Part shown: positions 61,491 through 64,000 of the stretch, in pieces | Numbering within the stretch: position 1 is the stretch's first letter | How the letters are laid out: the number at the start of each line of letters is the position of its first letter | From: Cryobacterium gelidum | Lineage (GTDB): Bacteria > Actinomycetota > Actinomycetes > Actinomycetales > Microbacteriaceae | Length of the DNA: 64,000 bases | Direction of reading: 5' to 3' | Assembly (NCBI RefSeq): GCF_004403985.1 | Contig: NZ_SOHL01000008.1 | Span: 62,001 to 126,000 of the forward strand | The notes under the pieces: model-generated | What the model saw: the letters and a program-made list of their open reading frames with translations, nothing else | Told to the model about the DNA's origin: nothing | Database searches by the model: none | Translations under genes and position numbers: made by a program

Positions 61491-61520
61491 AACGCCCCGA
61501 ACCGTAAAGTTCGAGGCGTT
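61491..61520 (-). terminator. Intrinsic terminator after the WxL-like gene
   Basis: On the minus strand AACGCCTCGAAC and GTTCGGGGCGTT pair (12 bp, one G-U) around TTTACG, followed by TTTTG. It is 37 bases downstream of the stop of the secreted WxL-like protein gene. Confidence 0.85.
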
Positions 61521-62260: not shown

Positions 62261-62387
62261 CTGCGGCGATAAAACAATCCTCACACGGGGGCCGCGCAAA
62301 TTGGTGGTTCGTCGCGCAGGGTTGAATCAGCGTTAGCTCAAGGTTGGCGCAATGCCCAGGAGGGGGTTTAGCCCAGGCCGCGAGGCT

Positions 62388-64000
62388 CTACGAAATGGTG
62401 AAAGTGAGAACCGTCACGTAGGGGTTCATTGGCGAGTCTTCGATGGCGCCCGAGTAGTTCGACCGGTACGCGTTGGAGGGAATAATCAGGCTGTACGTCG
62501 GCGTCAGCAGGTAGGTGCCCTCGTGTGGGCCGGTTGTAGCAATCAGGGTCTGCGGGCTGGTCGACAGCGCAAGCGTCGGTGCCGTGATATCGGTCGCGGC
62601 ATCGGTATTGGGGCCGGTAGTGATGGTGCCCGGGGCGATGCTCAGGTTGTTCACGGGAAGGACTCGGTCTTGGGTTTCGACCGTGCCGGCGGCGCTGGTC
62701 GGCGTGGTGGCGCTCACCGAGAGGGTCCACGCAGCTCCGGTGCCACGCGCATCGATGATGGTCCATAGGCTCGAGACACCCGTGGCGACCTGCGGTTGGG
62801 TGCCGAGAAGGGTCACCGCTGAAAGCGTCGCGCCCGCGGTGGTCGCGGTGAGGTCACCGACGGTTGGCGCGGGATTGGTGAAGCTCACCGTGCCCACACT
62901 GACGGCGCCGTTAGCGGTTAATGCCCGTCCGAGGTTGCTGACGCCGAGTCCGATCGAGATCGCCGCCATGCCGATGATCGTTCCGGTAAACGCGGATGCC
63001 GCCCCCAGCGACACAGCCCCGGCCACCTGCCAATAGACCCGCGACGCTTGTGCCCCGTTGGTCAGGATGACGCTGCTGCTGGCAGCCGTGTTGAAGGCGG
63101 CATTCACCTGAATGATGAAGATGGCGTTCGGGTTGCCCTGTCCATCGAGGGTGAGCGTGGTGCTGATGGCGAGGGCGGCAGTAGCCCTATAGACCCCGGA
63201 GGTGAGTGTGCGGCCAGCCAGATCGCCGACGAGGGTGGCGCTCGCTGGCCTCGCCGCGGCATCTTTGTACGCTGTAGCGAGGTCGACCTGCGCAGCGGCC
63301 GCAGCAGCATCGCCGCCGTGGATGGTGCCCGTGACTACGTCGGGCGGAAACCCGGTGACCGACGTTCCCGGGCTTACGCCGATGTCCCCGTCGAACGACG
63401 ATTCTCCGGTGTTGGTGATCGAGGTGGTCGCGAGGATCGCGTAGGTGCTAGCGCGTCCGAGATCGACCTCCGGATCCGTCGTGAATGTGTTGCTGCCAAG
63501 CGTGACGGACCCGTTGCGGGTGAGGGCTCGGCCGGTAAAACGCGAATTGGTGCCCACGTTGATGGCGTCCTGGCCGAGAATGATGCCCGAGATCGACGAT
63601 GACGAACCGAGCCGCACCACGCCATCGACCTGCCAGAACACCCGAGACGGCTGCGCGCCGTTGATCAGGCGTACGCTGCTGCCAGCGCTCGTGGTGAGGG
63701 TGCTGTCGAGCTGGAAGATGAAGACGGCGTTCGGGTTGCCCTGCCCGTTCAGGGTCACCGACGAACTGAGAGTCAGAGGGCCAGGTGCGGCGTAAACGCC
63801 GGCGTTGTAGGTTTGACCGCTCAGATTGCCGCTCAGCGCGGTGGTGGGCTGGCGGGCGCTGGCATCGTCAATGGCGGACTGCAGATCGAGCTGGGCTTGG
63901 GCGCTCTCGGCCGTTCCTCGTTGAGTGCTACCGGTGACCAGGCCGGGCGGGAAGCCGGTCACGCCCGTGCCCGGGCTCACTCCGAGGTTACCGCTGAGGG
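62388..64000 (-). CDS. Ice-binding protein with two DUF3494 domains and a C-terminal WxL-like domain (5' end outside the window)
   Basis: The frame is open to the right edge, so the N-terminus lies beyond 64000. At least 537 residues are visible. Two DUF3494 (ice-binding, PF11999) repeats occupy the first about 390 residues; each has a GVSPGTxVTGFPP start, TLNGQGNPNAVFIFQLD / TLDGQGNPNAIFIIQVN, SRVFWQVDGVV / SRVYWQVAGAV and GIILGQDAINVG / GTIIGMAAISIG. A WxL-like domain (about 405-530: WTIIDARGTGAAWTLSVSAT ... AYRSNYSGAIEDSPMNPYVT) ends the protein. It would bind ice or inhibit recrystallisation at the cell surface. Duplicate DUF3494 domains are uncommon in actinobacteria but known in other ice-binding proteins. 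Confidence 0.9.
   Translation of the reverse strand, partial: LSGNLGVSPGTGVTGFPPGLVTGSTQRGTAESAQAQLDLQSAIDDASARQPTTALSGNLSGQTYNAGVYAAPGPLTLSSSVTLNGQGNPNAVFIFQLDSTLTTSAGSSVRLINGAQPSRVFWQVDGVVRLGSSSSISGIILGQDAINVGTNSRFTGRALTRNGSVTLGSNTFTTDPEVDLGRASTYAILATTSITNTGESSFDGDIGVSPGTSVTGFPPDVVTGTIHGGDAAAAAAQVDLATAYKDAAARPASATLVGDLAGRTLTSGVYRATAALAISTTLTLDGQGNPNAIFIIQVNAAFNTAASSSVILTNGAQASRVYWQVAGAVSLGAASAFTGTIIGMAAISIGLGVSNLGRALTANGAVSVGTVSFTNPAPTVGDLTATTAGATLSAVTLLGTQPQVATGVSSLWTIIDARGTGAAWTLSVSATTPTSAAGTVETQDRVLPVNNLSIAPGTITTGPNTDAATDITAPTLALSTSPQTLIATTGPHEGTYLLTPTYSLIIPSNAYRSNYSGAIEDSPMNPYVTVLTFTIS

Follow-up and report, generated by a model that had tools for sequence, protein, structure and literature searches.

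The DNA analysed here, hereafter the window, is a 64,000-nucleotide stretch of the Cryobacterium gelidum genome (C17:62001-126000 of 3,468,075 bases in 30 contigs). At its end lies, on the minus strand, the 3' part (62388..64000) of a gene referred to below as IBDx3-WxL, or the fusion, with the stop at 62388 and a reading frame still open at the window end. The complete gene (C17:124388-126820, minus strand) encodes 810 amino acids, and its 5' end would equal window position 64820. From N- to C-terminus, the product (P0001) consists of a signal peptide, three DUF3494/Ice_binding domains and a WxL-like domain. Hydrophobic stretches were observed at residues 18-40, near the start, and, more weakly, at residues 603-628 within the third solenoid; the protein contains no cysteine. 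An LPXTG or C-terminal membrane anchor was considered and rejected, as scanning the protein for LPXTG and for a hydrophobic stretch past the WxL domain revealed neither. The window's sequence and 15 relatives (one with a shortened middle domain) were aligned with a mean column identity of 69%. The AF2 model of the whole protein had a mean pLDDT of 81.7 and a pTM of 0.71, with the solenoid blocks mostly at 75-96 and the final 23 residues below 50.

The initial annotation had reported two complete ice-binding repeats. When the domain search that it proposed was run on the full gene, Pfam PF11999 (Ice_binding) matched in three stretches over the cut-off (509.9 bits in all, cut-off 28.7), and PF13731 matched residues 683-769 at 21.1 bits, under its cut-off of 25. 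The count of two was therefore corrected to three, in a gene cut by the window: the third domain (62871..63482, minus strand) is complete, as stated, while the second (63483..64000, minus strand) has lost about 28 N-terminal residues to the window end and the whole first domain lies outside. Against the NCBIfam equivalog IBP_CFB (NF045625) the fusion scored 267.6 bits and, being under the cut-off of 400, was not filed under that family. In a sequence comparison to solved structures 5uyt and 6eio led, and 6EIO, which we take to be EfcIBP, was the best single-domain match for each domain. The AF2 model contained the DUF3494 beta-solenoid with its accompanying alpha helix (Z 30.8 to 34.8 among the solved members listed); its matches included 7bwx (Z 34.8, rmsd 1.2, 201 aligned), 6eio (Z 34.6, rmsd 2.2, 213 aligned), the two-domain 5uyt (Z 33.7) and FfIBP (about 33). 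The ice-site motif of such proteins is T-A/G-X-T/N, of which domains one, two and three carry 2, 2 and 0 exact copies. Family and fold together suggest that all three domains bind ice.

The history of the array was examined in a quick tree of 49 ice domains, in which 6 of the 8 syntenic loci were used (L008 and L010 were omitted for size). The 41 domains from triple arrays formed a single clade (SH-aLRT 100), and position in the array was a better guide to the grouping of copies than genome of origin (6 changes versus 26.9 after shuffling). Some parts of this tree are weak: the single D2 branch had a support of 23, D1 and D3 mixed in the g77 and g84 genomes, and 22 of the 46 inner branches were weak. 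Because the arrays form one clade and cluster by position above genome, the triplication looks, from these sequences, older than the sampled lineages. Recent duplication of the ice domains within species was not supported by this grouping.

The C-terminal WxL-like domain (residues 651-810; 62391..62870, minus strand) keeps the first motif as AWTLS and has YVTVLTFTIS at the distal position. The proximal Trp-x-Leu (W48, L50) was invariant in 24 of 24 Cryobacterium copies, as was the distal T-F-T-I, with the chain ending one residue further. The distal WxL motif is given in an excerpt of PMC5817068 as YXXX(L/I/V)TWXLXXXP, a strict form from which the Cryobacterium tails depart. A profile comparison by hhalign with six WxL domains of five Bacillaceae plasmids gave a match of 97.8% (E 1.3e-12, 151 columns) and placed NPYVTVLTFTI of the tail onto TPYEATLTWNL of the Bacillaceae WxL, bearing out the earlier proposal of a WxL-like domain joined to ice-binding domains. 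Against PF13731, one small WxL protein of the locus scored above the cut-off of 25 (P0004, 26.7 bits) and the other below it (P0003, 16.7). Tails of relatives were found above the cut-off in another genus (L068, 38.5) and in Cryobacterium (L007, 28.2; L074, 27.7) and below it, at 15.4-23.3, in L063, L064, L070, L072, L073 and L076; for the L066 tail no PF13731 match was listed. A chance match was rejected: the weak scores repeat on the same profile region in relatives, and the profiles align lengthwise. Judged from its sequence, the tail is best described as WxL-like and, because the distal Trp-x-Leu is replaced by FTI, as a divergent branch for which the strict motif is not claimed. Given FTI at the distal motif, the Firmicutes mode of wall binding may not carry over. 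Sequence searches of WxL or WxLIP against solved structures stayed at chance level (best E 0.74 for A1 and 0.42 for A2), and a Virgibacillus WxL gave no match in such a search.

The WxLIP/DUF916 protein (P0002, 381 aa) is encoded on the same strand, past the window end. It scored 33.7 bits against PF06030 (DUF916; cut-off 27.3), and the WxLIP proteins of relatives lay above this cut-off in L063 (39.0) and L065 (33.5) and below it in L064 (24.8). By hhalign, it matched three Bacillaceae DUF916 proteins at 95.9% (E 5.2e-9, 154 columns), and no DUF3324 Pfam match was listed at E up to 1. The best match of its AF2 model (mean pLDDT 79.0) was 9i25_C (Z 18.8, rmsd 4.7, 234 of 251 residues, model span 61-310), an entry described as 'WxLIP from Enterococcus faecium locus A bound to long WxL', followed by 9i1y_A (Z 17.8, rmsd 5.0, 235 aligned); this relation to the Enterococcus WxLIP was found by fold comparison only, not by sequence. 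The other matches listed had Z of at most 11.4, with the pilus chaperone YadV and an axoneme protein at their top. No WxL chain of 9i25 figured among the matches listed for the fusion model, and we give this absence no weight either way. A C-terminal transmembrane helix of WxLIP (residues 302-338 by hydropathy, 311-348 as a predicted helix) is closed by an Arg-rich tail of ~50 residues, with 9 K/R and 5 D/E from residue 331 onward. By the positive-inside rule for membrane helices, this tail points to the bacterium's own membrane. WxLIP has been proposed to insert into the host membrane (PMC10599100, in part), an idea that does not fit a glacier bacterium without a known host. The conserved WxLIP motif given in the same paper, NQIDKxxxYFDLK, was not found in P0002, where the corresponding stretch, by eye, is RPELESDFFHINL.

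On the same strand, five genes follow each other 5' to 3': a fatty acid desaturase (P0006), a small WxL protein (P0003, 205 aa), WxLIP, IBDx3-WxL and a second small WxL protein (P0004; 61558-62139, minus strand; 193 aa), the last with an N-terminal hydrophobic stretch and one WxL domain and not mentioned in the initial annotation. The ATG of the fusion and the stop of the WxLIP gene share 4 nt. A terminator-like hairpin of 13 pairs follows the last gene (61491..61520, minus strand) and a second, of 15 pairs, separates the desaturase from the first WxL gene. With hairpins at these two places the four genes look like a self-contained module, an argument from position and not from number, as 4 such sites were found and 3.1 expected. 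The five-gene order was conserved in all 8 of the Cryobacterium loci compared, namely that of the window and L007-L013, and the 4-nt overlap, by coordinates, in 6 of the 8. In the C. aureum locus (L013 4803-7962), the WxLIP frame was matched to residue 284 only and the middle ice domain is shortened, perhaps through decay and perhaps through an assembly fault. A gene for a protein O-mannosyltransferase (PMT; L005 10134-11723) lies immediately upstream of the desaturase; it could act on Thr/Ser-rich surface proteins of the cluster or be background synteny. By a published definition, a WxL cluster comprises a WxLIP gene and two WxL genes or more, lying no further than four genes apart (excerpt of PMC10599100); provided that the tails count as WxL-like, one WxLIP and three such genes are adjacent here. 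Holding at the cell surface, which the initial annotation had proposed, has more support than it could draw on: the gene is coupled to that for WxLIP, small WxL genes lie on either side of the pair, and the relation of the tail to WxL holds at the level of profiles.

Two intergenic gaps of the module (small WxL/WxLIP and fusion/small WxL) contain a two-box element, which was found in both gaps of 8 of 8 Cryobacterium loci, one L009 copy falling under the script threshold and being seen by eye. In the second gap, box 1 (62317..62350, minus strand) carries three repeats spaced by 11 nt, AACCTTG-N4-AACGCTG-N4-AACCCTG, and is followed by box 2 (CCGTGTGAGGAT; 62277..62288, minus strand), the two box starts lying 62 nt apart. 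The first-gap copy (L005 8016-8079, past the window end) lies upstream of the WxLIP gene with a spacing of 52 nt. Across the loci, box 1 is GCGCNAANNTTGANNNAANNCTGA, with one mismatch in one copy of L011, box 2 is CCGTGTGAGRAT or one or two letters off, and the first gap has a spacing of 52 nt (51 in one locus), the second one of 62 nt (61 in one locus). Box 1 with one mismatch allowed occurs at 2 places genome-wide, both at this cluster (backward control 0). The AACnCTG-like repeat pattern with two mismatches allowed gave one further match elsewhere and two in the control, so that only the exact pattern counts. Looser forms of the element were seen in other Cryobacterium clusters. In other genera (L063-L073), a search around the cluster genes that tolerated as many as 3 mismatches did not find it. 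A consensus scan for sigma-70-type promoters gave none at box 2, whose second-gap copy overlaps a predicted hairpin. Eleven-base direct repeats are typical of OmpR/PhoB-type regulators. TGTGAGAAT could be an extended -10, and the 10-nt difference in spacing, equal to one helical turn, would agree with an activator working from a single face of the DNA. The element is probably the site of a dedicated regulator, a putative assignment.

Among 57 Cryobacterium genomes, an Ice_binding match was found in 46 and a WxL-like match in 21. Fusion genes (same contig and open frame) numbered 17 in 16 genomes and were not seen in 41; this set overlaps the 8 syntenic loci and does not add independent cases to them. 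Three ice-domain matches were present in 14 of the fusions (the middle domain being shortened in G006) and one in the other 3. The genome G025 has both kinds, in a cluster (L077) where a three-domain and a one-domain IBD-WxL gene flank the WxLIP gene. Further Ice_binding frames occur in 10 of the 16 fusion-bearing genomes, and the other 6 (G000, G018, G026, G034, G046 and G050) have no other Ice_binding match save a remnant in G000. As this remnant (G000:C25:58108-58362; L006 6109-6363) is what is left of a separate, single-domain ice-binding protein, truncated at the 5' end and covering profile positions 119-208 only, no intact Ice_binding gene besides the fusion is present in the window's genome. 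Also noted were other long frames, of 837-1152 aa, in which Ice_binding matched once or twice and WxL not at all (G053:C10:493307-494992, G011:C27, G053:C8, G021:C95 and G033:C72).

In wider samples the WxL-like domain was found in 17 of 398 genomes of the family and in 11 of 396 of the phylum, the fusion occurring in the latter only in the window's own genome. Distant tails may have been missed in these two samples, as the WxL-like model derives from Cryobacterium and scoring was confined to the best 9 first-look candidates of each genome. Ice_binding shared a frame with the WxL-like domain in only four of the 21 positive non-Cryobacterium genomes of both samples: the fusions of G194, G251 and G334 (genera g77 and g84) have three ice domains and stand beside a WxLIP, and that of G418 (g78; L066 1-1368), truncated by the start of its contig, has one, preceded by an extra He_PIG Ig-like domain. 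Tails of the same kind were also seen in further genera of the family (L070, L072 and L073), where they belong to proteins resembling S15 X-Pro dipeptidyl-peptidases and M64 peptidases, with a WxLIP frame in the cluster; these are perhaps surface-displayed proteases on the same platform. The WxL/WxLIP platform is a general one, and bearing ice heads is one of its uses. In a search of genome contigs, the tail was covered in 7 of 26 loci, all Cryobacterium, and the other 19 stopped by residue 671. DUF3494 matches were found in 35 plasmid records, and none of the 25 plasmid places listed passes query residue 652, so that no WxL tail is present in these listed IBD proteins.

An assembly or fusion artefact was rejected because the fusion recurs in 16 of the 57 genus genomes and in three further genera. 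We conclude that the fusion of ice-binding heads with a WxL-type surface module is a real, conserved and rare architecture. The initial annotation had called the combination unusual, in keeping with these 16 Cryobacterium genomes, with 4 genomes in three other genera of the family and with the papers searched, none of which pairs DUF3494 or ice-binding with WxL. Cryobacterium and DUF3494 meet in one of these papers, on Subtercola (PMC6518244, in part), WxL is not among the table rows listed for DUF3494 partner domains in Arctic sea ice (PMC9957290), and the terms Actinobacteri, Actinomycet and Cryobacterium are absent from the main text of a paper on WxL proteins (PMC9772566). A spread of the same architecture through many mesophiles would have spoken against the initial reading; in the Cryobacterium, family and phylum samples (best 9 candidates per genome in the latter two) no such wide spread was seen, the fusion occurring outside Cryobacterium in 4 genomes only. 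The nearest named relatives of the window are Cryobacterium. This actinobacterial genus is one of cold habitats, and its psychrophiles mainly occur in phylogenomic cluster 1, to which C. suzukii, C. ruanii, C. flavum and C. aureum, named among the seven related loci, all belong (excerpts of PMC10067761).

Taking the observed architecture, gene cluster and conservation together with the folds of the predicted models, we propose, with a probability of about 0.7, that the fusion is a wall- and membrane-tethered, surface-displayed ice-binding protein that would serve ice adhesion and/or guard the cell's ice boundary. Its tethering is well supported by context and fold; wall binding, a WxL-WxLIP complex in this organism, ice adsorption, a benefit and, with them, the purpose of the module are what we infer. 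The signal peptide would export the fusion, whose C-terminal WxL-like domain would then hold it at the cell wall. WxLIP, predicted to cross the membrane once and to expose two Ig-like domains outside the cell, would grip the WxL domain, probably by a lent beta strand, and so provide a tie to the membrane. The two small WxL proteins may supply extra wall-bound copies, and the three tandem beta-solenoids would point outward and adsorb to ice. In glacier ice, the likely benefit would be the attachment of cells to ice or, alternatively, a liquid film kept and recrystallisation blocked at the cell's own surface. If true, this would be a route for a Gram-positive bacterium to hold ice-binding domains on its surface, by way of a platform that is known so far almost only from Firmicutes, of which many live in association with hosts. 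Whether actinobacteria of glaciers fasten themselves to ice or protect their own ice boundary would thereby become a testable question. There is a consequence for WxL biology, too, since without an animal host in sight the WxLIP helix and its Arg-rich tail would fit the cell's own membrane better than the published proposal of entry into a host membrane.

The tandem domains might instead form a surface adhesin for a target other than ice (a polysaccharide, a mineral or another cell), DUF3494 serving as a flat solenoid head. Exact copies of the ice-site motif are few, the S15 and M64 peptidases borne by the same kind of tail in relatives argue that the platform is not specific to ice, and lone IBDs are common in actinobacteria that do not dwell in ice: 15 of the 35 plasmid records with DUF3494 are Streptomyces, the others including Rhodococcus, Embleya and Curtobacterium. 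DUF3494 domains are likewise described in Streptomyces and other soil actinobacteria (excerpt of PMC6518244). We nevertheless consider such a target rather unlikely, as the closest solved relatives, by sequence and by fold, are titled ice-binding or antifreeze proteins and the triple fusion is conserved in a genus of icy habitats. That the protein is mainly shed or secreted, acting around the cell as an ordinary soluble ice-binding protein with its WxL domain loosely associated, would suit the altered distal motif and the non-covalent nature of WxL binding, reports having placed WxL proteins in the medium as well as at the surface (PMC5817068, in part). This appears very unlikely to us in view of the gene overlap with a membrane-anchored WxLIP and the conserved neighbours; moreover, the further Ice_binding frames in 10 of the 16 fusion genomes could provide a soluble form.

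WxL/WxLIP could also be a Gram-positive counterpart of the chaperone-pilus principle and build an ice-tipped fibre, or "ice pilus". The WxL sandwich would then be one strand short; WxLIP, as assembly factor, would supply the strand at the membrane, after which the small WxL proteins would supply each other and form a chain by strand exchange. Because the N-terminal side of the fusion runs into the ice domains, it could only accept a strand and so would cap the fibre as its ice-binding tip. Consistent with this, most matches listed for the WxLIP model after the two WxLIP entries are pilus chaperones (YadV, FimC and CfaA, Z 10 to 11.4), but unrelated proteins (axoneme, transglutaminase) score level with them. 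The WxL-like part of the fusion model matches cannula and pilus subunits (9h8b, 7uii, 3f83, 5iqm, 4y2o and 6fq0) at Z 5.0 to 7.1, all values below 8, a range in which the likeness may be no more than a shared arrangement, and obtained with the weaker region of the model. Both the fibre and the role of the Cryobacterium fusion as its tip are, in our estimate, improbable to a high degree.

The tethered, surface-displayed ice-binding protein that we favour can be set beside several known systems. As in Firmicutes WxL clusters, one WxLIP stands with at least two adjoining WxL proteins, and, as in large WxL proteins of Firmicutes, a C-terminal WxL domain follows functional heads (excerpts of PMC10599100); the WxLIP fold match (Z 18.8) and the WxL profile match (97.8%) add to the likeness. 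Unlike those clusters, the Cryobacterium module belongs to Actinomycetota, bears ice-binding instead of host-binding heads, has FTI at the distal motif, gives no DUF3324 sequence match (E up to 1) and carries the Arg-rich tail of ~50 residues at the WxLIP C-terminus. EfcIBP and AnpIBP (6EIO and 7BWX) resemble the fusion in fold (Z 34.6 and 34.8), as top single-domain sequence matches and in their domain of ~200 residues. Neither has a capping head (excerpt of PMC7783341). They are single domains, whereas the fusion has three in tandem before a WxL-like tail. The 5UYT protein, from an Antarctic Flavobacteriaceae bacterium, also has tandem DUF3494 domains, two instead of three; we know of no WxL tail or WxLIP neighbour for it. 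An IBP of Nostoc, like the fusion, joins a DUF3494 domain to a surface-anchoring C-terminal signal, but it is a one-domain cyanobacterial protein with PEP-Cterm instead of WxL/WxLIP (PMC7783341, in part). In 2016, MpIBP of Marinomonas primoryensis was described as the sole ice adhesin then known (excerpt of PMC5014055), and a Shewanella protein was proposed in 2018 as a potential new type (a title cited in PMC7783341). Unlike the fusion, MpIBP is a Gram-negative RTX adhesin of 1.5 MDa, distinguished from DUF3494 proteins, and is not a relative; the two are alike in principle, a surface-held ice-binding domain that, in MpIBP, keeps the cell on ice (PMC5014055, in part).
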